Shown here: piece after piece, positions 45,301-56,567 of the stretch
Layout: each line of letters opens with the position of its first letter
Position numbering within the stretch: the first letter of the stretch is position 1
Notes under the pieces: model-generated
Database searches by the model: none
What the model was told of the DNA's origin: nothing
The model's input: only the letters and a program-made list of their open reading frames with translations
NCBI RefSeq assembly: GCF_001937445.1
Contig: NZ_MSKS01000028.1
Span: forward strand, 1-64,000
Reading direction: 5' to 3'
Origin: Actinomyces oris
Lineage (GTDB): Bacteria; Actinomycetota; Actinomycetes; Actinomycetales; Actinomycetaceae
Length of the DNA stretch: 64,000 nucleotides
Position numbers and translations under genes: made by a program

Positions 45301-45545
45301 GGGGCCGGCTCGACGGCTGTGGTCTGCGGGGCCGGCTGTACGCCGGGCTCCTCGGACCCGGAGGCGGTGACGGCATCTAAGGCCCCTACCGAACCGGGCT
45401 GCTCGGCAACGGGAGCCTGGGCGGGGGCGGCCGCGGCCGCGGTGACCCTGCGACGGCGGCGCGGAGTCGGGGCGCTCACGGCGTCACCGTCAGCGCGCTC
45501 CTGCTCGTACGATTCTGTTGATTCTGATGTGGTGCGACGTGCCAT
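42303..45545 (-). CDS. rne: Ribonuclease E/G with long charged extensions
   Basis: 1080 aa. The conserved catalytic core is about residues 400-880: an S1 RNA-binding domain (GNVYVGRVQNVLPSMEAAFV near 457), the DNase I-like region with metal ligands in VIDVNTGRFTG near 720 and VIDFVDM, and the Zn-link CEHCKGRG near 824. The N-terminal 400 residues are low-complexity acidic blocks with RRRRR-type clusters, and the C terminus ends in Lys-rich KKSAKKSGEKK-type repeats before RRTRRRAAA. As in other actinobacteria, these flanks probably bind RNA and degradosome partners. No clear ribosome-binding site precedes the ATG. Confidence 0.95.
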   Translation of the reverse strand: MARRTTSESTESYEQERADGDAVSAPTPRRRRRVTAAAAAPAQAPVAEQPGSVGALDAVTASGSEEPGVQPAPQTTAVEPAPRRRRKVVAASAAPEEAPAAEPHVAAEASETDGAHVAEGGPSADAAQEDLDEQVDTEGTDDEEPEMSQEDDELTEADLDEKDLQAPRLPAASLLFQAPDPSRARRRRRVTAATAAPQAAPTASRHQGAKDWADKEDVGARTGAEGRNEEAEAESSRSDRSSARGRRRRQAVASTGAPPEPCEDSVHDKADAESAEVSESDGTDEPRVESSEDSREGGARRKRRRGGRGRRSRSRGEDSARNDADDEPQAVEEGGDDAAPSRETSADGATETATSTVSGSRRRRRRSRTRSEGGDLRDEVTALKGSTRLEAKRQRRREGRAAGRRRPIITEAEFLARRESVDRQMIVRESDGLNQIAVLEDGLLVEHYVSRHTQTSMVGNVYVGRVQNVLPSMEAAFVDLGKGRNAVLYAGEVNWDAAGLEGRPRRIEDALSSGDTVLVQVTKDPIGHKGARLTSQITLAGRYLVLVPGGTMTGISRKLPDTERSRLKKILKRIVPDSAGVIVRTAAEGATQEQLTADVERLVAQWEAIDKKASSVMKGSGKAPVLLKGEPELAVRVIRDVFNEDFRRLVVSGDNTWSTVSQYIDEVSPDLSERLEHWVGPEDVFAAHRVDEQLAKGFDRKVWLPSGGTLVIDRTEAMTVIDVNTGRFTGAGGTLEETVTRNNLEAAEEIVRQLRLRDIGGMVVIDFVDMVLESNRDLVLRRLVECLGRDRTRHQVTEVTSLGLVQMTRKRVGQGLVEAFSTTCEHCKGRGFIVHDEPVENQQVDMSASASRGGGRSRGRKSREEQATGGVKKETKQDSQETKGSKGSKGSGHGKRNAGRDVAASPESGADDEARAAVRGALAQIAAAAEQAHKDHQQEGQDPHEERSVETSAAGVSDSAHDAAGTAENVESVDGQDASDSPAEDKPAKTRSRKAADKKSAKKSGEKKSDKADKKSGRKTGGKAEKKAATTSEGPAEPQPDEEPPGSAEEKPARRTRRRAAAKSAAPSPENSSDTPEASA

Positions 45546-46084
45546 GGGGCTTGCACTCTCCGGGGCCGACGCCGTCGTCGTACCCTCGACGCGTCAGCGC
45601 GGTTGTGCTCCCGACCGGGAGCAGCGAGAAAGTCTTGAGAGCGCCCGCGAGGGCGCACGCCTTACCTGACGTCCACACAGACCGGGCTCGCAGCGGCGCA
45701 GCTCAGGCGGCGCAAGGTCCTCGGACAGGGTCGGCCGGAAGGCGCGGCTTCAGGTACCGGTACGAGACACCCGAAGCCGGCTCGAAGTATCCCACACAAA
45801 CGCCGATAAGCGCTTGTGCGACTCATGGTGTCCCCGATCTCTGCGCACGTTGGCCTCATCACCCACCCAGCAACCACCCACCCCACCAAGACACGCGGAA
45901 GCCCCACTAAAGTATTACGGACTTTCGACCCAATCTCGCAGCAATCACACCTTCAACGCTTACCTTTTACACTACTGCGACAACACCTCGTCAGCGGTGC
46001 GACCACAGGAAAAGAACCGGGTGGACCGCAGGCCGCAGCACCTTCACACCTCACGCGTTTCACGACATGGCGTCACAGATGCAC
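45546..46084. other. Long divergent intergenic region, rne / cydA
   Basis: No gene is supported. The rne-proximal half is GC-rich; it must contain the rne promoter and possibly a structured 5' leader, as is common for RNase E mRNAs. The cydA-proximal half (from about 45790) is AT-richer and ends at the cydA promoter. Small frames on both strands have no recognisable domain. Confidence 0.45.
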
Positions 46085-46090
46085 TATAAT
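46085..46090 (+). promoter_or_regulatory. cydA: cydA -10 element
   Basis: A consensus TATAAT, giving a predicted start near 46097 and a leader of about 67 nt. No clear -35 lies 17 nt upstream, so an activator may be required. Confidence 0.6.
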
Positions 46091-46102
46091 ACTCTTATTG
46101 AC

Positions 46103-46120
46103 CTGTAGGACGTTCTACAG
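46103..46120 (+). promoter_or_regulatory. cydA: Operator-like palindrome in the cydA leader
   Basis: CTGTAG-GACGTT-CTACAG, perfect 6-bp arms with a 6-nt spacer, just after the predicted transcription start. The position suits a repressor. It does not match the Rex consensus TTGTGAAN4TTCACAA. Confidence 0.5.
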
Positions 46121-46163
46121 ATTCTCTTATCGATCTCATCGTCATCTCCGAAAGGTGGCACGG

Positions 46164-47732
46164 ATGGCCATCTCTCCTATGGCGCTGGACTCTCTGGATC
46201 TGGCGCGCTGGCAGTTCGGTATCACCACCGTCTACCACTTCATCCTGGTTCCGCTGACCATCGGGCTGTCCCCGCTGGTGGCTCTCATGGAGACGCTGTG
46301 GCGCAGGACCGGCAACAGGCAGTGGCTCGTGGCCACCACGTTCTTCGGCAAGATTCTGCTGATCAACTTCGCGCTGGGCGTGGCCACCGGCATCGTTCAG
46401 GAGTTCCAGTTCGGCATGAACTGGTCGGAGTACTCCAGGTTCGTCGGTAACATCTTCGGCGCCCCTCTCGCCTTCGAGGCCCTGCTGGCCTTCTTCATGG
46501 AGTCCGTCTTCCTGGGCCTGTGGATCTTCGGATGGGACCGACTGTCCCCCAGGCTGCACAACCTGTGCATGTGGGCCGTGGCCGCCGGCACGAACTTCTC
46601 CGCCTTCTTCATCCTCACCGCCAACTCCTGGATGCAGCACCCGGTGGGCGCCGTCGTCAACCCCAAGACGGGGCGTGCCGAGCTCGACGGCGTGAGCGGC
46701 TTCCTCAAGCTCCTGTCCAACGAGCTGGTGTGGGCCACCGTGCTGCACGTTATCTCCTCGGCCCTGCTCGTGGCCGCGGCCGTCGTCATGGGCGTGTCCG
46801 TGTGGTGGATGGTCAAGGCCGCCCAGGCGAAGCAGGACTTTGAGGCGCGTGAGCTGTGGCGGCGGGTCGCCCGTTTCGGGGCCGTCGTCATGGTGGCCGC
46901 GGGCCTGGTCACCGCCGGCACCGGCCACATGCAGGGCCAGCTGGTCGCCGAGTACCAACCGGGCAAGATGGCCGCCGCCGAGGGGCTGTGCCACACCGAG
47001 GCCGGAGCCCCCTTCACCGTGGCCGCTTTCGGGGACTGCAAGAACGAGGACGGCATGGTCCGGTTCATCTCGGTTCCCGGTGTTTACTCCTTCATGGCCA
47101 CCAACGACGTCAACGCCAAGATCACCGGGCTCAAGGAGGCCGGCGACATCTATAAGCAGTACGGCACCACTGATGCGCGCGGCAACGCCGTCGACTACAG
47201 CCCCAACGTCATGGTCAACTTCTGGTCCTTCCGCCTCATGATCGGACTGGGCATGGCCTCGATGGGCCTGGGGGCTCTGGCCCTGTGGCTGACCCGCGCC
47301 AACAGGCTCGTCTCCCGCCCGCTTCTGGGCAAGGCGGCGCTGGCCACCATGTGGATGCCCTTCATCGCCTGCTCCTTCGGCTGGATCTTCCGTGAGATGG
47401 GCCGTCAGCCCTGGGTCATCGTCCCCAACCTGTCCGACCCGGTCTCCCAGGTCTACATGCTCACGGCCGACGGCGTCTCCTCCGCGGTCTCCTCGGGTGC
47501 GGTGCTGGCCTCGATGGTCATCTTCACCCTGCTGTACGCCGCGCTCGGAGTGGTCTGGTTCATGCTGCTGCGCCGCTACATCCGCGAAGGGGTGCGCACC
47601 CCGGTGCCGGACAAGACCGGCACGTCCAAGCAGACGGACCAGGACAGCACGGACACGGATTCCGACGACGACTCCGACGGCGACTCCGTTGACTCCTCCG
47701 AGGCCGCCCCGGCTCTGTCCTTCGCCTACTGA
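46164..47732 (+). CDS. cydA: Cytochrome bd ubiquinol/menaquinol oxidase subunit I
   Basis: 522 aa, polytopic. It carries quinol oxidation and hemes b558, b595 and d. Visible are WQFGITTVYHFILVPLTIGL (heme His near residue 20), GIVQEFQFGMNWSEYSRFVG with the acidic proton-path residues, and the GRQPW motif near residue 415. The Q-loop is the short type found in actinobacteria and Bacillus. An acidic Asp/Ser tail closes the protein. AAAGGTGG precedes the ATG; the frame is open further up without similarity. cydB follows by 21 nt. Confidence 0.96.
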   Translation: MAISPMALDSLDLARWQFGITTVYHFILVPLTIGLSPLVALMETLWRRTGNRQWLVATTFFGKILLINFALGVATGIVQEFQFGMNWSEYSRFVGNIFGAPLAFEALLAFFMESVFLGLWIFGWDRLSPRLHNLCMWAVAAGTNFSAFFILTANSWMQHPVGAVVNPKTGRAELDGVSGFLKLLSNELVWATVLHVISSALLVAAAVVMGVSVWWMVKAAQAKQDFEARELWRRVARFGAVVMVAAGLVTAGTGHMQGQLVAEYQPGKMAAAEGLCHTEAGAPFTVAAFGDCKNEDGMVRFISVPGVYSFMATNDVNAKITGLKEAGDIYKQYGTTDARGNAVDYSPNVMVNFWSFRLMIGLGMASMGLGALALWLTRANRLVSRPLLGKAALATMWMPFIACSFGWIFREMGRQPWVIVPNLSDPVSQVYMLTADGVSSAVSSGAVLASMVIFTLLYAALGVVWFMLLRRYIREGVRTPVPDKTGTSKQTDQDSTDTDSDDDSDGDSVDSSEAAPALSFAY

Positions 47733-47753
47733 ACCAAGGAAGGTAGACAACCC

Positions 47754-48887
47754 ATGACACTGAGCATCCTCTGGTTCATCCTCATCGCCGTCCTGTGGAT
47801 CGGCTACCTCACCCTGGAGGGCTTCGACTTCGGCGTCGGTATGATCCTGAAGATCCTGGGCCGCGACGAGCGTGAGCGGCGCGCGACGCTGGCCGCCATC
47901 GGCCCCCACTGGGACGGTAACGAGGTGTGGCTGCTGACCGCCGGAGGGGCGACCTTCGCCGCCTTCCCCGAGTGGTACTCCACCCTGTTCTCCGGGGCCT
48001 ACATCGTCCTGTTCATCATTCTGCTGTGCCTCATCGTGCGCGTGTGCGCCATCGAGTGGCGCCCCAAGGTCAACTCCCAGACCTGGCGCGACCGCTGGGA
48101 CTGGGTCCACACGGTCAGCGCCTGGCTGCCCTCCATCCTGTGGGGAGTGGCCTTCGCCAACCTGGTTCAGGGCATGCACATCGAGGTCGTCCAGACCTCC
48201 AACGGCGCCGTCGTCCCGGCCGCCCAGGTGCCGGCCGACTCCCTGGTGCCCGGTGCCGCCCACCAGATCACCGGGGGCCTGCTCACCATGGTCACTCCCT
48301 TCACCCTGCTGGGCGGTGCGGTCACCTGCCTGCTCTTCCTCAACCACGGCGCGCTCTTCGTAGCGCTCAAGACCACCGGTGACCTGTCACAGCGCGCACT
48401 GCGGTTGTCGCGCCGGCTCGCCCCCGCGGCCACCGCGGTCACCGCCGCCTGGGCCCTGTGGGCGCAGCTGGCCTACTCCGGCAGCGCCCTGTCCTGGATC
48501 CCGTTGGTCATCGCCGCTGCCGGACTCGTCGGCTCCCTGCTCATGGGACGCACTGGGAACGAGGGTCGGGCCTTCGCCCTGCACTTCGTGGGGATCGCCT
48601 TCGCCGTCGTCTTCATCTTCGCCGCGATGGCCCCCAACGTCATGCGCTCCTCGGTGGACCCGGCCTACTCGCTGACGATCCAGCAGGCCGCGAGCGCCGA
48701 CACGACCCTGCTCATCATGACCGTCGCCGCGGCCGTGTTCGTCCCCGGGGTCCTGGCCTACACGGTCTGGAGCTACAAGGTCTTCGCCTCACGTATCAGC
48801 GTCGAGAGCATCAACCCCGACCAGGGCGGGCTGCACCCCACGCTGGTGCGTGACTCGGCCCAGCCCGAGGCCCACTTCGGGTACTGA
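47754..48887 (+). CDS. cydB: Cytochrome bd oxidase subunit II
   Basis: 377 aa, eight membrane helices. It stabilises the heme core of CydA and completes the high-affinity terminal oxidase. Signature segments are LWIGYLTLEGFDFGVGMIL (residues about 13-31) and HWDGNEVWLLTAGGATFAAF near residue 52. AAGGAAGG lies ahead of the ATG. The 66-nt gap to cydD carries a separate promoter candidate. Confidence 0.96.
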   Translation: MTLSILWFILIAVLWIGYLTLEGFDFGVGMILKILGRDERERRATLAAIGPHWDGNEVWLLTAGGATFAAFPEWYSTLFSGAYIVLFIILLCLIVRVCAIEWRPKVNSQTWRDRWDWVHTVSAWLPSILWGVAFANLVQGMHIEVVQTSNGAVVPAAQVPADSLVPGAAHQITGGLLTMVTPFTLLGGAVTCLLFLNHGALFVALKTTGDLSQRALRLSRRLAPAATAVTAAWALWAQLAYSGSALSWIPLVIAAAGLVGSLLMGRTGNEGRAFALHFVGIAFAVVFIFAAMAPNVMRSSVDPAYSLTIQQAASADTTLLIMTVAAAVFVPGVLAYTVWSYKVFASRISVESINPDQGGLHPTLVRDSAQPEAHFGY

Positions 48888-48940
48888 CCATCAGCGCGAC
48901 GCATCGGCCGGGGGTTTCCGGGCCCTTGGGCCCACTCCCC

Positions 48941-48953
48941 TATCCTTGAGCAG
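48941..48953 (+). promoter_or_regulatory. cydD: Putative leaderless promoter of cydDC-kinase
   Basis: TATCCT (48941-48946) followed by 7 nt and the GTG start. There is no convincing Shine-Dalgarno. It would let cydDC and the kinase be expressed apart from cydAB. Confidence 0.45.
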
Positions 48954-50711
48954 GTGAAGCCCCTCGATCCCCGGCTGATGCGTTACGCACGCTCCGCTCG
49001 CCGATACATCGCCGCCACGGCCGTCACCGGGATGGTGACCGCCGTGCTGGTGGTGGCTCAGGCCTTCCTCATCTCCAGTGCGGTCTCCTCGGTCATCTCC
49101 GAGGGGGCCGCGCCGTCGGCTGTCAGGGCACTGGCGGTGGCTCTGGGCGGGGTCCTGGCGGCCAGGGCCCTGGTGGTCCTGCTCCAGGAGGCTCACGCCC
49201 ACCGGTCCGCCACGGAGACGATCGTCGAGCTGCGCCGGCTCGTTCTGGAGCACGCAGCCCGACTGGGCCCCCGTTGGCAGGCGCTTCACGGGACGCAGAC
49301 CGCCACTTTGCTGACTCGCGCGCTGGACGACCTCGAGCCCTACTTCACCCGCTACCTCCCCCAGCTGGTGCTGGCCTCCACGGTGACACCGGCCATGGTG
49401 CTGGTGCTCCTCACCCAGGACTGGTCCGCCGCGGTGGCCGTGGTGTGCACCCTGCCCCTCATCCCGATCTTCATGATTCTCATCGGCAGGATGACCCAGT
49501 CCGTCTCCCAGGAGCGCCTCAAGACCATGCAGGTCCTGGGTGATCAGGTGCTCGATCTCATCTCGGGTCTGCCCACGCTCAAGGCCCTCGGACGCGAGCA
49601 GGGACCGGCCGAGCAGGTGCGCTCCCTGGGCCGCTCCTACCGGCGCACCACCATGTCGACCTTACGGGTCGCCTTCCTGTCGGGGGCGGTCCTGGAGTTC
49701 ATCACGACGTTGTCGGTGGCGATCATCGCCGTCCAGATCGGTTTCCGGCTCGTGGCCGGGCGCATGGACCTGTTCACCGGCCTGCTCGTTCTCATGGTGG
49801 CCCCTGAGGTCTATCAGCCGCTGCGGCAGGTGGGTTTCCAGTTCCACGCCTCGGCCAACGGGGTGGCGGCGGCGAACGCGGTCTTTGAGGTTCTTCAGAC
49901 CCCGGTGCCCGAGCCCGGCGGCCTGCCGGCTCCCGACCTGCGCTCAGCGACGATTGAGCTCGATGCGGTGTCCGTCGCCTCCCGGGGCGCGTGGGCCCCC
50001 GCCGGGCTCAGCGCCTCGATCTCTCCAGGCAGCCTGGTGGCGCTGACCGGTCCGTCGGGTGCGGGCAAGACCACGACGACGCAGGTCCTCCTCGGCCTGC
50101 TGGCCCCGGACCGGGGGCGGGTGCGGGTCGTGCCCGACGGCGTTGAGCCCGACGGCGCCGTCGACCTCGCCCAGATCGATCCGACCACCTGGTGGGAGCA
50201 GATCGCCTGGGTGCCCCAGCGCCCCACCATCACCCCGGGCACTGTGCTGGACAACGTCCTGGATCATGCCGAGCCGGGCGCATCCAGAGCGCAGGGCGTC
50301 CCCGACGTACTGGTCGAGGCGGCCCGGGCCACCGGCTTCGATGAGGTCGTGGATGGCCTGCCGCAGGGGTGGCGGACCCCGGTGGGCAGTCAAGGAGTGG
50401 GCCTGTCCGTGGGGCAGCGCCAACGTCTGGCCCTGACCAGGGCCCTGTGCTCGACGGCGACCCTGGTGGTCATGGATGAGCCGACCGCCCACCTGGACGC
50501 GGCCAGTGAGGCCCACGTCCTGGACGCAGTCCGTACGCTGCACGCCTCGGGGCGCACGGTGGTGGTCATTGCGCACCGTCCCGCGCTCATGGCCCTGGCC
50601 GAGCAGACCATTGCCGTGACGAGCCAACCGGTGCCGCCGGCACCATCGGCGGGCGTCGCACCTGACCGGGCACCTGCCCGTGAGGCGACGGCGCAGGAGG
50701 AGGCCCTGTGA
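48954..50711 (+). CDS. cydD: CydD, ABC exporter subunit for cytochrome bd assembly
   Basis: 585 aa. Six membrane helices (about 1-320) precede the ATPase domain: Walker A TGPSGAGKTTTT near residue 363, signature LSVGQRQRLALTRAL near 482, Walker B TLVVMDEPTAHLD. In E. coli CydDC is a heme/thiol-related exporter or transporter needed for bd oxidase maturation. A variable Pro/Ala tail follows the ATPase. The stop overlaps the cydC start (GTGA), as expected for a heterodimer. Confidence 0.94.
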   Translation: MKPLDPRLMRYARSARRYIAATAVTGMVTAVLVVAQAFLISSAVSSVISEGAAPSAVRALAVALGGVLAARALVVLLQEAHAHRSATETIVELRRLVLEHAARLGPRWQALHGTQTATLLTRALDDLEPYFTRYLPQLVLASTVTPAMVLVLLTQDWSAAVAVVCTLPLIPIFMILIGRMTQSVSQERLKTMQVLGDQVLDLISGLPTLKALGREQGPAEQVRSLGRSYRRTTMSTLRVAFLSGAVLEFITTLSVAIIAVQIGFRLVAGRMDLFTGLLVLMVAPEVYQPLRQVGFQFHASANGVAAANAVFEVLQTPVPEPGGLPAPDLRSATIELDAVSVASRGAWAPAGLSASISPGSLVALTGPSGAGKTTTTQVLLGLLAPDRGRVRVVPDGVEPDGAVDLAQIDPTTWWEQIAWVPQRPTITPGTVLDNVLDHAEPGASRAQGVPDVLVEAARATGFDEVVDGLPQGWRTPVGSQGVGLSVGQRQRLALTRALCSTATLVVMDEPTAHLDAASEAHVLDAVRTLHASGRTVVVIAHRPALMALAEQTIAVTSQPVPPAPSAGVAPDRAPAREATAQEEAL

Positions 50712-52603
50712 GCACTGTGAGCACTGTCAACCCCGTCACCCCGGTGAGCCCGGCGACCTCCTCCCTCTCCCCCGCGCTGTCCGCCGATGAGCGAGGCTCC
50801 CTGCGCCGTGCGGTGGGCCTGCTGAACCTGGACCGGTCACGTTTCATCCTGGCCGTGCTCGCCGGAACGGCGGGTATGGCCTCGGCCGTGGCCCTGTCCG
50901 GGGTGGCGGCCTGGCTCATTGCGCGGGCCTCCCAGATGCCCGACGTCGTCGCGCTGGGGGTGGCGCCGGTGGCGGTGCGGCTCTTCGGTATCTCGCGCTC
51001 CGTCCTGCGCTACTGCGAACGGCTCGTCTCCCATGACACCGCCCTGAGAGGCATGGGCGCTCTGCGCACCCGCCTCTATGAGTCCCTGGCGGCGGCCCGC
51101 ACGGACACGGTTGCGAGCCTGCGTCGCGGCGACGTCCTGGCGCGAGTGGGCAACGACATCGACGCGGTCGGGGATCTCGTCGTGCGCGCCTATCTGCCTG
51201 CGGCGGTTGCAGCCGTCCTGGGTGCGGCCACCTGTCTCGGCATCTCCCTGGTCTACTGGCCGGCGGGCCTCATCCTGCTGGCCTGCCTGCTGCTGTCGGG
51301 ACTGGTGGGCCCGTTGGCCACCATCCGTTCGGCGAGGATCGCCGAGCAGGCCCGTCAGAGGCAGGCCACCGAGCTGTCCGCGCAGGTCCTGGCGGTCCTG
51401 GAGGGGGCCCCTGAGCTGTCCGTCTCCGGGCGCCTGGCCGGCTCGATGCGCCAGGTCGCCTCCCGGGAGGAGGGCCTGAGCCGCCTGCGGGACCGGGCCG
51501 CGGTACCGGCCGCGATCGCGGCGGCCGTGGATGTGGCTGCCATGGGCATCGCGGTCCTGGGCAACCTGGTGGTCGGGGTGAGCGCCATCTCCGCCGGGCG
51601 GCTGGCCCCGGTCTGGCTGGCAGTCATCGTCCTGGTTCCGCTGGCGGCCTTCGAGGCCACCTCCGCGCTCGGGCCGGCCAGCGTGCAGCTGGTGAGGTCG
51701 GCCGGCGCCGCCTGCCGCATCGTGGAGCTCATCGAGGCGGCCGAGGCCAGTGCCGACGCCGGCGGCGCGACGTCCTGCGCACCCCGGGAGCTGCCCGAGC
51801 CCTCCGCCCAGGGCCCGTACCTCAAGGCAAGGGGCCTGGCGGTGGGTTGGCCGGGCGGCCCGGTTGTGGCCGAGGGCATCGACCTGGATCTGCGGGTCGG
51901 TCGCCGAGTGGCGATCGTAGGGCCGTCGGGGATCGGCAAGTCGACACTGCTGGCCACGCTGGCGGGACTGCTGGAGCCTCGGGGCGGCACGCTGACGCTC
52001 GACGGTGTCCCCCCGTGGCAGGCGGCCCGCCCCGATGTGGCGGCCAGGGTGTGCCTGACCGCGGAGGACGCGCACGTCTTCCACACCAGTGTCCTGGAGA
52101 ACCTGCGCGTGGCGCGCGGGGACGTCACTCCCGCCCAGGCCGGTGATCTGCTGAGGCGGGCCGGCCTGGGGAACTGGCTCGAGGCTCTTCCCGACGGCGT
52201 CGAGACCATCATCGGCACCGATGCCACAACGTTGTCCGGTGGAGAGCGGCGTCGGCTCCTGCTGGCCCGGGCCCTGGCGGCTCCGGCCCCCCTGATGCTG
52301 CTGGACGAGCCCGGTGAGCATCTCGATGCCGTCACCGCGGACCGGCTCGTGACCGACCTGCTGACAGCGGGTGACTCGGGCCGCGGCGCTCTCCTGGTCA
52401 CCCATCGTCTCAGCGCCCTGGAGCACGCCGACGAGGTCCTTGTCATGGGACACCGCCCGCAGGCCACCGGCGTGCAGGCCCCGGCGACTATCCTGCACCG
52501 AGGCAGCCACTGTGAGCTCCAGGACGTCTCCGAGACCTACCGGTGGTCGCTCTCCCAGGAGGATCAGGACAGGCAGCAGGACCACGTATCCGCTACGAGC
52601 TGA
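50708..52603 (+). CDS. cydC: CydC, ABC exporter subunit for cytochrome bd assembly
   Basis: 631 aa half-transporter. Membrane domain at about 40-350 (SRFILAVLAGTAGMASAVAL), then ATPase with Walker A VGPSGIGKSTLLATLAG near residue 405, signature LSGGERRRLLLARAL near 510 and Walker B LMLLDEPGEHLD. Pairs with CydD. The next gene, a histidine kinase, begins 14 nt after the stop. Confidence 0.94.
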   Translation: MSTVSTVNPVTPVSPATSSLSPALSADERGSLRRAVGLLNLDRSRFILAVLAGTAGMASAVALSGVAAWLIARASQMPDVVALGVAPVAVRLFGISRSVLRYCERLVSHDTALRGMGALRTRLYESLAAARTDTVASLRRGDVLARVGNDIDAVGDLVVRAYLPAAVAAVLGAATCLGISLVYWPAGLILLACLLLSGLVGPLATIRSARIAEQARQRQATELSAQVLAVLEGAPELSVSGRLAGSMRQVASREEGLSRLRDRAAVPAAIAAAVDVAAMGIAVLGNLVVGVSAISAGRLAPVWLAVIVLVPLAAFEATSALGPASVQLVRSAGAACRIVELIEAAEASADAGGATSCAPRELPEPSAQGPYLKARGLAVGWPGGPVVAEGIDLDLRVGRRVAIVGPSGIGKSTLLATLAGLLEPRGGTLTLDGVPPWQAARPDVAARVCLTAEDAHVFHTSVLENLRVARGDVTPAQAGDLLRRAGLGNWLEALPDGVETIIGTDATTLSGGERRRLLLARALAAPAPLMLLDEPGEHLDAVTADRLVTDLLTAGDSGRGALLVTHRLSALEHADEVLVMGHRPQATGVQAPATILHRGSHCELQDVSETYRWSLSQEDQDRQQDHVSATS

Positions 52604-52617
52604 ACGAGCTGAGCACG

Positions 52618-54711
52618 ATGACGACACCCCACCCCCAGCACGCAGCAGACACTCCCGGCGACGGCCTTGGCTTGTCCGGTGTGCCCGAGGACGCCTCGGA
52701 GGAGATCGACGGACCCTCAGCGCGACGGGATGAGGCGATAGCGCCCGCTTCGGAGGAGAACGCCGCGGCAGGACGCCTGGCCTACGCCGTCCACGCCGAC
52801 CAGCTGGTCTCCACCCGTGGCCGCCGGGCGTCGGCCCTTCAGCCGAGCCTGGACGAGGCGACCGTCGCCCTCATCCAGGCGGCCCTCAGGCTCACCAGCT
52901 CCCTGCGGGTCCCCGACGCGCTGCGCCGTCTGGTGGAGTCGGCCTGCTCCATCACCGGTGCCTCCTGGGGCACCATCGCCGTGCTCAACCACGCGGACAT
53001 GGATGTCGACCCGGCCGGCGCCCTCTCGCCCGGTCCCTCCGGCGCGGGCTCAGGCACCGGGCTGTGCAGCGGGGTGCCCACGGCGACCCTCGATGAGCTC
53101 GCCCAGATGGCCGGCGCCCCCGATTCCGCTGGTGCTTCGCCCACCTGCGCTGAGTCCATGCTCAGCGGGCTCGAGGGCACCGGGATGGTCATCGACAACG
53201 ACCTGGGCAGGGCCTCGGCCTTCACCGGTGCCATCGAGGGTGAGGAGACCGGCAGCCTGCTCTCGGCCCCGCTGCGCCTTCACGGCCAGGTCTACGGGCA
53301 CCTTTACCTGTGTGACAAGCCCGGGGGCTTCACCCGGTCGGACGCCGACGCCGTCCTGACCCTGGCCCAGGCCGCAGCTGTCGCTGTGGAGAACGCCCGC
53401 CTGTACCGCGAGGCCCGCGACCGCGAGCAGTGGATGGCCGTCTCCCAGGAGCTGACGACACTGCTGCTCTCGGGCGCCCAGGAGGATGACGCGCTGACGC
53501 TCATCGCCCACCGCGTCCGCCAAGTGGCTCACGCCGACACGGCCGCCCTCATCCTGCCCAGCATCGGGAAGCGCTGGATCTGCGAGATCGCCGACGGCGA
53601 GCACGCCCACGAGCTCATCGGTACCTTCTTCCCGTCCGAGGGTCGAGCTCTGACCACCCTGGCCCATCAGACCGGCCTGGTCGTGGACTCCCTGGAGGAC
53701 GCCTGGGGCGACGGCGACCTCCTGGTCCCCCAGCTGGCCCAGTTCGGACCGGCCCTCTACGCCCCCATGATCCACCGGGGGCGGGGCGTGGGGGTCATGC
53801 TGCTGCTGCGCTCCCCGGGTGCGGCACCGTTCACCGCCCAGGACCTGGAGATCGCCGAGCTCGTGGCGGGGCAGGCCACGATGGCCTTCGAGCTGGCCGA
53901 CGCCCAGCACGCCGAGGAGATGGCCACGCTGCTCGATGAGCGGGCCCGGATCGGCCGAGACCTGCACGACCTGGCCATCCAACAGCTCTTCGCCACCGGC
54001 ATGCAGATCTCAGCGGCCCGGGAACGGCTGGCCTCCAGCACACAGGCGGACCTGGAGGCGGTGTGCTCCGTGCTGAGCACCGCGCTGGAGGCGGTGGACG
54101 ACTCCGTGGGCCAGATCCGCTCCATCGTGCGCTCCCTGCGCGATCGCGATGAGGAGGTGGGTGTGATCGAACGGCTGCGGCGCGAGGCCTCCCTGGCCCG
54201 CAACGCCCTGGGCTACGCCCCCTCGCTGCTGCTGAGCGTCGACGGCCGGGGCCTGGCCCAGGTGGACCGCGACGAGGAGGACCGGCTCATCGCCTCGGTC
54301 GACGCCGCCGTGGCACCGGATGTCGCCGACGACATGGTCGCCGTCGTGCGTGAGGGACTGAGCAACGTGGCCCGTCACGCCCACGCCTCCTCAGTGACGG
54401 TGGACGTCAAGATCGAGGGGGTGCAGCCGGGCTCGGAGCAGTGCTGCGGCCCCGGCGACGACGAGGGCCACGCCTCGGGCGACGCCGAGCCCTTCCGGGG
54501 CAGCCCGGTGGTGGAGATCGTCTGCCGTGACGACGGCGTCGGGGTGAATCCCTCGGTGACGCGCCGTTCGGGGACGGCCAACATGGCCGAGCGGGCCCGC
54601 CGCCACGGCGGCAGCTTCGTCATCGGTCCGCGGGCCCGCTCCGACGGCGAGCGGCGCGGCACCTGCTTCACCTGGCGAGTGCCCTTGGACGGGGGCGGCC
54701 GGGAGCGCTGA
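52618..54711 (+). CDS. GAF-domain sensor histidine kinase (NarL-type, DevS/DosS-like layout)
   Basis: 697 aa, soluble, no membrane segment. Two GAF sensor regions (about residues 85-270 and 285-435) are followed by a HisKA_3 dimerisation helix with the phospho-acceptor His450 in RIGRDLHDLAIQQLF. A HATPase domain follows (REGLSNVARHAHA near 582, DDGVGV near 640, GTANMAERARRHGGSF). This is the layout of DevS-type redox/gas sensors, whose first GAF may bind heme; a heme ligand cannot be assigned by eye. Its ATG is 14 nt after cydC, so it is probably co-transcribed with the bd-oxidase assembly genes. Confidence 0.9.
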   Translation: MTTPHPQHAADTPGDGLGLSGVPEDASEEIDGPSARRDEAIAPASEENAAAGRLAYAVHADQLVSTRGRRASALQPSLDEATVALIQAALRLTSSLRVPDALRRLVESACSITGASWGTIAVLNHADMDVDPAGALSPGPSGAGSGTGLCSGVPTATLDELAQMAGAPDSAGASPTCAESMLSGLEGTGMVIDNDLGRASAFTGAIEGEETGSLLSAPLRLHGQVYGHLYLCDKPGGFTRSDADAVLTLAQAAAVAVENARLYREARDREQWMAVSQELTTLLLSGAQEDDALTLIAHRVRQVAHADTAALILPSIGKRWICEIADGEHAHELIGTFFPSEGRALTTLAHQTGLVVDSLEDAWGDGDLLVPQLAQFGPALYAPMIHRGRGVGVMLLLRSPGAAPFTAQDLEIAELVAGQATMAFELADAQHAEEMATLLDERARIGRDLHDLAIQQLFATGMQISAARERLASSTQADLEAVCSVLSTALEAVDDSVGQIRSIVRSLRDRDEEVGVIERLRREASLARNALGYAPSLLLSVDGRGLAQVDRDEEDRLIASVDAAVAPDVADDMVAVVREGLSNVARHAHASSVTVDVKIEGVQPGSEQCCGPGDDEGHASGDAEPFRGSPVVEIVCRDDGVGVNPSVTRRSGTANMAERARRHGGSFVIGPRARSDGERRGTCFTWRVPLDGGGRER

Positions 54712-54760
54712 GAGCGCTTGCGCCCCCTCAGCGGTGGGCTCAGCGCGTCGGCAGGAACCG

Positions 54761-55414
54761 TCAGCTGTTGCGCCAGCCCGAGGCGCGCTGGCCGGCGACC
54801 CAGGCGGCGACCTGGGTGCGCCGCTGCAGACCCATCTTGGCCAGCAGGGAGGTGATGTGGTTCTTGACCGTCTTCTCGGCGACTCCGAGCCGCTCACCGA
54901 TCTCCCGGTTGGACAGGCCGTCACCGATGAGGTCGAGGACCTTGCGCTCGGCGTTGGTCAGGTCGGCGGTGGGGTCGTCGTGGTCCGCCCGGCGGCGCGT
55001 CACGGTGCGCTCGTCGAGCAGGACGCGTCCGGAGGCCACAGCCCGCACGACGTCGCTGATCTCGGCACCGTGGACCGTCTTGAGCAGGTAGGCCCGGGCG
55101 CCTGCCGCCAGAGCCTCGGCCAGGGCCTCGTCGTCGTCGAAGGAGGTCAGTACGATCGGCAGGGCCTGGGGCACGGAGTCTCGCAGCTCCTGCATGAGCT
55201 CGATGCCGGTGCCGTCGGGCAGCTGGAGGTCCACGAGGATGACGTCGGGGCGGACCAGCTCGGCCCGGCGCACCGCCTCGGCCCGAGAGCCCGCCTCGGC
55301 GACGACGTCGAGCCCATCGGCGCGGTCAATGATCTCGGCGATGCCGCGACGGACGATCTCGTGGTCGTCCACGATCATGACGCGGACGATCTCCGAGGAG
55401 GGGGTGTGTGCCAT
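54761..55414 (-). CDS. LuxR/NarL-family response regulator
   Basis: 217 aa. Receiver domain with RVMIVDDHEIVRRGIAEII and the phosphorylation site in DVILVDLQLPDGTG (Asp near residue 57), then a linker and a LuxR HTH (LTNAERKVLDLIGDGLSNRE). It is the presumed partner of the histidine kinase that converges on it, with 49 nt between stops. TAATGT lies 7 nt before the chosen ATG, pointing to a leaderless start; an ATG two codons upstream is the alternative. Confidence 0.92.
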   Translation of the reverse strand: MAHTPSSEIVRVMIVDDHEIVRRGIAEIIDRADGLDVVAEAGSRAEAVRRAELVRPDVILVDLQLPDGTGIELMQELRDSVPQALPIVLTSFDDDEALAEALAAGARAYLLKTVHGAEISDVVRAVASGRVLLDERTVTRRRADHDDPTADLTNAERKVLDLIGDGLSNREIGERLGVAEKTVKNHITSLLAKMGLQRRTQVAAWVAGQRASGWRNS

Positions 55415-55427
55415 ACTCATGACATTA
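55415..55427 (-). promoter_or_regulatory. Putative leaderless promoter of the response regulator
   Basis: On the minus strand TAATGT-CATGAGT-ATG, a TANNNT hexamer 7 nt before the start and no Shine-Dalgarno. Confidence 0.35.
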
Positions 55428-55508
55428 CCAGGGGCTGGAAATCTACGTCACACCTCTGGCTTCGTCGTGGCGCGGCTGTCGTGGAGACTGCCCGACGTCG
55501 ACGGCCGC

Positions 55509-56567
55509 CTACCGGCGTCGGCGCGGACGGGTCTGGCAGTGGGGGCAGTAGGTGTGGGAGCGCCCTGCCAGAGTCTCGCGCGCCATGGTGGCCCCGCAGC
55601 GACGGCACTCCAGCCCCTGACGCCCGTAGGCACCCAGCTCGCGGGCGAAGAACCCGGCGGCGCCCTCGACATCGACGTAGAGGGCGTCGAAGCTCGTGCC
55701 GCCGGCCTGAAGGGCCCGGCGCATGACCTCAGCGGTGGCTTCAAGGATCCGGGCCACGGCCCTCGGGCCGAGACCGGTTCCCGGACGCAGGCCGTGCACC
55801 CCGGCCTCCCACAGGCCCTCGTCGGCGTAGATGTTGCCGATGCCCGAGACGAGTCCCTGGTCGAGCAGCTGGGTCTTGATGGCACGTCTCGAGGCGCGCA
55901 CCCGGGCGACGACGCCGGTGGGGCCGGTCAGCTCCAGGGCCGGGTCAAGCAGATCACGGGCGATATGGGTGGCATCGGCGGGAAGCAGCGGCCGCGGATC
56001 ACCCATCCCGCCGGGAGCACCGTCGAGCGTGGGGGTCAGGTCGACGACGTGCAGGCCGCCGAGCATGCGCTGGTCGACCAGGTCGAGTACCGCCCCGCCG
56101 GCGCTGTCGTCACCGTCGAGGCCGGTGCTGAGGTGGAGGCGCACTCGCAGGTGGCGGGCGGAGGTGGAGATATCCCGCACGTAGCGGGGTTGCTCGGTGG
56201 CGCTCAGGTCCACTGGGCGCCCGCCGGGCCGAACGCGCGGATCGGCCAGGAAGGCCGCGGCACCGGCTGGCTGAGGGGCGGCACCAGGAGCGGTTGCGGT
56301 GGTGGTGCCGCGCACGAGCAGCTGGCCGCTCATGCCCAGGTGGGCGGACAGGGCGCGTCCGTCGTCCAGGGGCAGCCACAGGAACTTCCCGCGGCGGACA
56401 GCCGCGGTCAGGGTGCGCCCGGTGAGCTGGTCGACGAAGGCCTGCGCTCCCCCGTCCTGGCGGCGCAGCGGACGCGGGTCGAGGACCTCGACGCGGGTGA
56501 CGGTGCGGCCGGCCACGTGCCGGGCGAGCCCGGCACGCACCACCTCGACCTCGGGCAGCTCGGGCAT
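55509..56567 (-). CDS. mutM: Formamidopyrimidine-DNA glycosylase (Fpg/MutM)
   Basis: 352 aa. It removes 8-oxoguanine and cuts the strand. The catalytic Pro2/Glu3 start [17 protein letters not shown] is intact, as are LGMSGQLLV, the H2TH signature GIGNIYADEGLW, and a C-terminal zinc finger (CRRCGA...CPHCQ). It is longer than the usual 270-300 residues because of two extra loops, one Ala/Thr/Pro-rich at about residues 88-125 and one near 170-195. The ATG shares its A with the rnc stop (TGATG). Confidence 0.95.
   Translation of the reverse strand: MPELPEVEVVRAGLARHVAGRTVTRVEVLDPRPLRRQDGGAQAFVDQLTGRTLTAAVRRGKFLWLPLDDGRALSAHLGMSGQLLVRGTTTATAPGAAPQPAGAAAFLADPRVRPGGRPVDLSATEQPRYVRDISTSARHLRVRLHLSTGLDGDDSAGGAVLDLVDQRMLGGLHVVDLTPTLDGAPGGMGDPRPLLPADATHIARDLLDPALELTGPTGVVARVRASRRAIKTQLLDQGLVSGIGNIYADEGLWEAGVHGLRPGTGLGPRAVARILEATAEVMRRALQAGGTSFDALYVDVEGAAGFFARELGAYGRQGLECRRCGATMARETLAGRSHTYCPHCQTRPRRRR

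Follow-up and report, generated by a model that had tools for sequence, protein, structure and literature searches.

The cydABDC locus and the adjoining two-component genes

The window, viz. the whole stretch of 64,000 nucleotides of Actinomyces oris DNA that was analysed, carries a cytochrome bd operon of the cydABDC type, with CydA, CydB, CydC and CydD all recognised by Pfam and NCBIfam models, followed by the gene for a sensor kinase and, on the opposite strand, the gene for a response regulator. The genes of this region are as follows:

46164-47732, plus strand: cydA, cytochrome bd subunit I (Pfam PF01654, 510 bits)
47754-48887, plus strand: cydB, cytochrome bd subunit II (PF02322; TIGR00203 above cut-off)
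48954-50711, plus strand, GTG start: cydD, ABC exporter subunit for bd assembly (TIGR02857, 640.1 bits, cut-off 435)
50708-52603, plus strand: cydC, ABC exporter subunit for bd assembly (TIGR02868, 639.1 bits, cut-off 329)
52618-54711, plus strand: sensor histidine kinase GAF-GAF-HisKA_3-HATPase, 697 aa (Pfam, orthologue alignment)
54761-55420, minus strand: NarL/DevR-type response regulator, 219 aa (Pfam Response_reg and GerE)

The sequence-only reading of this DNA had placed the start of the region at 48941; the bd assembly genes described there are borne out as cydD and cydC, and the start of cydD lies 13 nt later, at 48954. It had also described a GAF-GAF-HisKA_3 kinase directly after cydC and a likely regulator converging on it from the other strand, which agrees with a kinase ATG at 52618, 14 nt past the cydC stop, and with the DevR-type gene on the minus strand at 54761-55420. 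Upstream of the regulator on the minus strand are two genes which, from their own sequences, we take to be mutM and rnc, and the regulator is the final gene of the strand running from coaD to rnc and mutM. Consensus scans of positions 45400-55700 called no promoter-like or terminator-like site between cydC and the kinase gene; the sole promoter-like site in this interval is upstream of cydA (1 found, 0.3 expected) and the sole terminator-like site is a palindrome at 46103-46120 (2.0 expected by chance). The gap between cydC and the kinase gene, with start codons set by rule, is between -34 and +65 nt in 53 of 58 Actinomycetaceae loci, and the five outliers are at -3462, -1656, -536, -149 and +847. 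Because no promoter- or terminator-like site intervenes and the gaps in the family are short, it is likely that cydABDC and the kinase gene form one operon with a shared transcript, as had been proposed earlier.

The regulator is a NarL-type protein whose best match in the PDB is DevR (3c3w, E 2.2e-52), and it shares the core of the recognition helix with DosR/DevR, the KTVKN of DevR being identical. In the family loci outside Actinomyces the median identity of its best segment is 79%, whereas in the same loci the kinase and MutM each have a median of 43%, CydA-D have 50-54% and Rnc has 55%; Rne alone, with 78%, is comparable to the regulator in conservation. The difference between 79% for the regulator and 43-54% for the kinase and the cyd genes suggests that the regulator has further targets beyond cyd.

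Distribution of the kinase and the regulator

Of the 151 Actinomycetaceae genomes, 148 have a match to the kinase (E 1e-30) and 147 a match to the regulator (1e-60). Both genes are found in 147 genomes and neither in three (viz. G013, G030 and G064), and one (G006) has only the kinase, with the match lying in a 358-residue open frame. Further, in G011, G044, G103, G115, G086, G073 and G091 both genes are kept on one contig about 96-269 kb apart. The earlier view of the kinase and the regulator as a cognate pair is thus supported by their co-occurrence. As cydA is present in all three genomes that lack the pair, the oxidase can do without it.

The gene order is similarly stable. The genes cydA, B, D and C precede the kinase in 58 of 60 Actinomycetaceae loci, the exceptions being L040 and L041, where the pair is retained between rne and mutM and cydABDC is not there. 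Inside the stretch, a convergent regulator is seen in 55 of the 60 loci, 48 of which have a gap between -28 and 201 nt, and of the five loci without it three (L045, L060 and L079) stop at a contig end. The location of the two genes on opposite strands, which had been considered unusual for a two-component pair, is the usual state in this order. The surrounding genes rne, mutM, rnc and coaD are likewise kept in the family loci. As regards L040 and L041, cydA of G002 lies about 280 kb from the pair, and the only cydA match in G126 is 44% identical and on another contig.

Across the order, 111 of 198 genomes (family members included) match the kinase alignment at 1e-60. In the order outside the family, 40 places were fetched; cydC stands before the kinase on the same strand in 25 of them, and 24 of these 25 have a convergent regulator in the stretch. 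Among the other places, L125 and L128 are short contigs and the pair at L139 comes with no cyd. The kinases at L147-L157 score lower and lack the cyd block, several of them adjoining a DevR-like regulator, and at L159 a distant kinase has cydA and cydB in its vicinity. In the named loci L161-L195, cydC precedes the kinase in 31 of 35, and the genera with this order include Schaalia, Flaviflexus, Arcanobacterium, Actinotignum, Cellulomonas and Cellulosimicrobium. The loci from Streptomyces and relatives (L196-L240) are mostly without it. In two of them, from Streptomyces lonarensis (L200) and a Nocardiopsis MAG (L201), a DevS-like kinase has cyd genes in its vicinity; the link between cyd and the kinase may predate the order or may have arisen again.

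DevR-type boxes and the promoter of cydA

The sites of interest upstream of cydA in the window are the following:

45918-45931, no strand: weak DevR-type box CGGACTTTCGACCC, 2 mismatches to GGGAC-N4-GTCCC
46062-46090, plus strand: promoter-like ACGACA-17-TATAAT of cydA (consensus scan; conserved in 12 close relatives)
46063-46075, no strand: palindrome YGACR-N3-YGTCR over the -35, CGACATGGCGTCA (upstream counts)
46103-46120, plus strand: palindrome CTGTAGGACGTTCTACAG, between the cydA promoter and the start codon, called terminator-like

Every palindrome with two exact 5-base arms was enumerated at cydA, over a region made up of the first 30 bases of the gene and the 450 bases preceding it. 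This was done for 58 sequences (the window and 57 loci) and, as a control, for 50 shuffled sets. The enumeration made no use of the DevR consensus, which had been scanned for earlier. The top palindrome, GGGAC-N4-GTCCC, which is a site of the DevR kind, is present in 18 of the 58 cydA upstream regions, and any palindrome reached at most 4 in the 50 shuffled sets. Boxes with at most one mismatch are found at cydA in 28 of 48 sequences from other genera (1.4 expected), 16 of 21 from other families (1.3 expected) and 16 of 47 from Actinomyces (2.4 expected), so that such a box is missing in 20 of the 48 and 5 of the 21; upstream regions under 200 bases were assigned no box score. In 35 sequences the box is 45-110 bp before the start codon (6 from Actinomyces and that of G013 are included), and among these a TANNNT starts +29 after the box centre in 12 and +30 in 11 (0.011 expected per position). 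A TANNNT at +28 to +31 is seen in 11 of 28 box-bearing sequences from other genera, 14 of 16 from other families and 0 of 16 from Actinomyces. If the -10 hexamer starts at -12, then the box centre falls near -41.5, which is a classical position for an activator, and the box is inferred to activate cydA in the relatives. Boxes with one mismatch are nonetheless present upstream of cydA in G013 (L287), a genome without the kinase and the regulator, and a paralogous regulator may use them there.

The best box at cydA in the window is CGGACTTTCGACCC, which precedes the start codon by 246 bp and is thus a long way upstream from the predicted promoter. The place at about -246 is conserved above its flanks and is box-like in most of the 12 close relatives (CGGACTTTCGTCCC, GGGCCTTCAGTCCC). 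A DevR-type box that is strong at promoters of the relatives is, in the genome of the window, weak at cydA and good at nrdD (see below), and a genome-wide search there for a regulon of exact boxes revealed none, the backward control having 12 sites and the box 8. The proposal that the kinase controls the bd oxidase stands in part. That the pair governs the bd oxidase across the order is well supported by sequence, with cydA boxes in the relatives that are fixed relative to the -10, whereas in this organism, with its weak distal box, control of cydA by the pair is uncertain.

A different palindrome, YGACR-N3-YGTCR, precedes cydA in 40 of the 47 Actinomyces sequences (0.3 expected), compared with 9 of 48 from other genera (0.6 expected), 5 of 21 from other families (0.7 expected) and one of the two genomes without the pair. 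It is located 95-122 bp, mostly 100-104 bp, before the cydA start codon, and a TANNNT follows its centre mostly after 16 or 17 nt (28 and 11 counts). As its first arm is within the -35, some of its conservation is the promoter's own; the second arm is outside the -35. At nrdD this palindrome was seen in 0 of 30 loci (500 bp examined), and the narrower pattern TGACRNNNYGTCA has 80 sites in 12 Actinomyces genomes compared with 34 for the control. The third palindrome, CTGTAGGACGTTCTACAG, is near-identical in the 12 close relatives, whereas the cydA upstream regions of other family members showed no copy of it; it had at first been considered the site of the regulator and was dropped due to this absence beyond the closest relatives. 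It can be read as a hairpin or as an operator before the cydA start codon.

The box at nrdD and at other genes

In 12 genomes, the pattern GGGACNWWNGTCCC occurs at 52 sites, compared with 6 for its backward control. These genomes were mostly chosen for their cydA box; such boxes make up 11 of the 52, and without them the comparison is 41 against 6. The 39 loci around these sites include five of cydA and four of NrdD (in G014, G033, G106 and G101), the class III ribonucleotide reductase. The NrdD of G033 scores above the cut-off of TIGR02487 (NCBIfam), and the other three were named by their like N-termini. Other genes with a box are those for arginine deiminase and lipoamide dehydrogenase (G033), pntA (G220), and hemQ and ctaE (G207), the ctaE box overlapping the start of the open frame. 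There is also a SufR-like regulator, whose match is below its cut-off, and many of the 39 loci are without an evident respiratory gene.

In the genome of the window, nrdD (L331) has the box GGGACGAAAGTCCT at about 1108-1121 of its locus, about 327 bp before the estimated start, and similar sites are present at nrdD in L328, L330, L332-L335, L339 and L355, close relatives among them. Further on at the same nrdD, ACACAAGATGATGTGT resembles an NrdR box. The excess of boxes with at most one mismatch at nrdD of Actinomyces is modest (7 against 1.8 expected, in 30 loci of 49 genomes), and the nearest downstream TANNNT is mostly at +37, compared with +29/30 at cydA of the relatives. In this organism, nrdD is a better candidate target than cydA.

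The sensor region of the kinase

The kinase is 95% identical to that of A. oris CCUG 34288 and is the sole match to itself at E 1e-3 in the genome of the window. Its parts are as follows:

52909-53391, plus strand: GAF-A, residues 98-258 (PF13185; model weakly like DosS GAF-A)
53239-53241, plus strand: codon of Gly208, at the place of DosT His147 / DosS His149 (alignments)
53485-53886, plus strand: GAF-B, residues 290-423 (PF01590; conserved far better than GAF-A)
53965-53967, plus strand: codon of His450, the predicted phospho-acceptor (RDLHD; invariant in 33 orthologs)

With two GAF stretches and HisKA_3 above the Pfam cut-off and an HATPase_c match of 22.7 bits, below the cut-off of 26.4, the kinase has the domain arrangement of the DosS/DevS heme kinases; the N- and G-box residues of the HATPase are invariant among the 33 orthologs. 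Met1 aside, all invariant columns of these orthologs are from Trp272 on, i.e. in the linker, GAF-B and the kinase core. One ortholog of 430 residues (L083) is without GAF-A and still follows cydC, with the convergent regulator present.

According to PMC4082495, the heme of DosS is held by His149, with Tyr171 distal, and the corresponding residues of DosT are His147 and Tyr169. In the DosT segment of the alignment the two heme-pocket residues are 22 apart, matching this numbering. The kinase of the window reads IEGEETGSLLSAP here and has Gly208 at the place of the ligand, and a histidine at the DosS His149 / DosT His147 place was found in 0 of 44 alignable Actinomyces kinases. The ligand histidine (HPxM..FLG) is kept in 34 of 47 alignable kinases from other genera and 19 of 23 from other families. 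These counts leave out the kinases whose GAF-A did not align (a score below 60, or no anchor), which are 3 of 47 from Actinomyces, 5 of 52 from other genera and 5 of 28 from other families, as well as two stretches from genomes without the kinase-regulator pair. The distal tyrosine is retained, the LYL tyrosine aligning with DosS Tyr171 / DosT Tyr169 and being nearly invariant. For a structural model of a Flaviflexus GAF-A (pLDDT 80.8), DosS/DosT GAF-A occupy Foldseek ranks 1-17, with a best match of E 7.2e-16 and TM 0.87 by target; DosS is also first for the GAF-A of the window, but with E 1.6e-6 and TM 0.63, for a model of modest confidence (pLDDT 72.5, residues 65-99 under 50). The expectation of heme in the first GAF domain is contradicted at the ligand place, and a DosS-like heme in GAF-A of this organism's kinase is not supported.

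In a FastTree tree of 122 kinase cores, the state of the heme histidine changes at least 13 times and that of the cydA box at least 20 times. In view of the former, the heme ligand appears to have been lost repeatedly among these kinases. A test for a link between the histidine and the box, with 6 independent pairs on supported branches, gave a median sign-test p of 0.5, and we therefore claim no association of the two.

Comparison with known systems

The nearest known system is DosS/DosT-DosR (DevS-DevR) of mycobacteria (PMC4082495), to which the dormancy sensor of tuberculosis belongs. It is similar in the GAF-GAF-kinase layout, in the DevR-like regulator and the palindromic box of the GGGAC-N4-GTCCC type, and in the heme histidine mostly retained by the orthologs outside Actinomyces. 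It differs in that the pair described here is fixed to cydABDC with a convergent regulator, the heme ligand is lost in the genus of the window, and the sequence similarity of the kinase to DosS is weak. OsdK-OsdR of Streptomyces coelicolor is likewise an actinobacterial DevS/DevR-like pair with a similar palindrome, AGGGCCGATCGGCCCT, which is said in the text available to conform to the DevR site of M. tuberculosis; however, its regulon is one of stress and development, and the word cyd is absent from the text searched (PMC5069765). HrrSA of Corynebacterium glutamicum, which is set beside the pair by description, is also a two-component system tied to the expression of a terminal oxidase, but it is heme-responsive (PMC7337898). 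The best NCBIfam matches of the kinase and the regulator are MadS and MadR; with 42.9 and 157 bits these fall far short of the required 500 and 300, and the two proteins are therefore not members of these families. The accessible passages of an account of cydABCD in S. coelicolor (PMC6585502) do not name a linked kinase. In searches of open PubMed Central, no description of a cyd-kinase-regulator linkage was found, and the searches of open papers turned up no regulator of such kind described for common oral and environmental actinobacteria.

Interpretation of the cyd-linked pair

The interpretation that we favour, with confidence a little above even, is that the pair is a DosS/DosR-type system wired to cyd, with an input and an output that diverged in Actinomyces. 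According to it, the kinase and the convergent regulator would be cognate two-component partners of the DosS/DosR (DevS/DevR) type whose connection to the cytochrome bd operon goes back to an ancestor within the order, and the kinase would be made from the cydABDC transcript. In the older state, represented by the other genera and families, a heme histidine of the DosS type would be present in GAF-A. The regulator, once phosphorylated, would bind GGGAC-N4-GTCCC near -41.5, activating cydA and thereby its own sensor, and would also act at nrdD. In Actinomyces, the input would have diverged through loss of the heme ligand, and the output at cydA through a box that is weak or moved, with another palindrome on the -35; the pair here most likely senses a redox or metabolic cue via GAF-B or a non-heme GAF-A, and most likely controls nrdD and, more weakly, cydA. 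The gene order, the co-occurrence, the absence of the histidine, and the boxes with their spacing are results of computation; from the sequences, we infer the shared transcript, phosphotransfer, DNA binding, the direction of control and the signal. A more specific account of the genus, viz. that the heme ligand was lost genus-wide with the kinase kept on a non-heme redox or metabolic signal, that the regulator's site at cydA has moved off the activating position at -41.5, and that the -35 is under the YGACR-N3-YGTCR operator of another respiratory regulator, is put forward tentatively.

If the Actinomyces pair no longer controls cyd, then nrdD (and other genes) would be its main target, cyd would be under another regulator acting via YGACR-N3-YGTCR, and the link to cydABDC would be an inherited position. 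The palindrome on the -35 in 40 of 47 Actinomyces, the restriction of boxes with at most one mismatch to 16 of 47, never with a -10 at +28 to +31, and the box at nrdD in the window's own genome are all consistent with this. However, those 16 boxes exceed the 2.4 expected, and the -246 place is box-like in most of the 12 close relatives, and we consider this explanation rather unlikely. It is improbable that in this organism, in line with the sequence-only reading, the kinase is a heme sensor of oxygen, NO or redox state directly controlling cyd. The DosS-like architecture, the orthologs with the heme histidine and the LYL tyrosine at the place of DosS Tyr171 are in its favour, but the ligand-place histidine is missing in 44 of 44 Actinomyces kinases and the fold match of the window GAF-A is weaker. 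Lastly, that the kinase and the regulator are chance neighbours with different partners in a slowly changing region, in which rne, mutM, rnc and coaD are also kept, is very improbable, as the two are kept or lost together even when far apart and cydA bears boxes of the regulator's type in the relatives.

The kinase orthologs, some of which have the heme ligand and some of which lack it while all share one fixed gene neighbourhood, constitute a natural series, by means of which the function of a DosS-type kinase without heme would be directly testable. In addition, the interpretation favoured here leads one to expect an oxygen-related regulon comprising cydA and nrdD in actinobacteria that are common in the mouth and in the environment.
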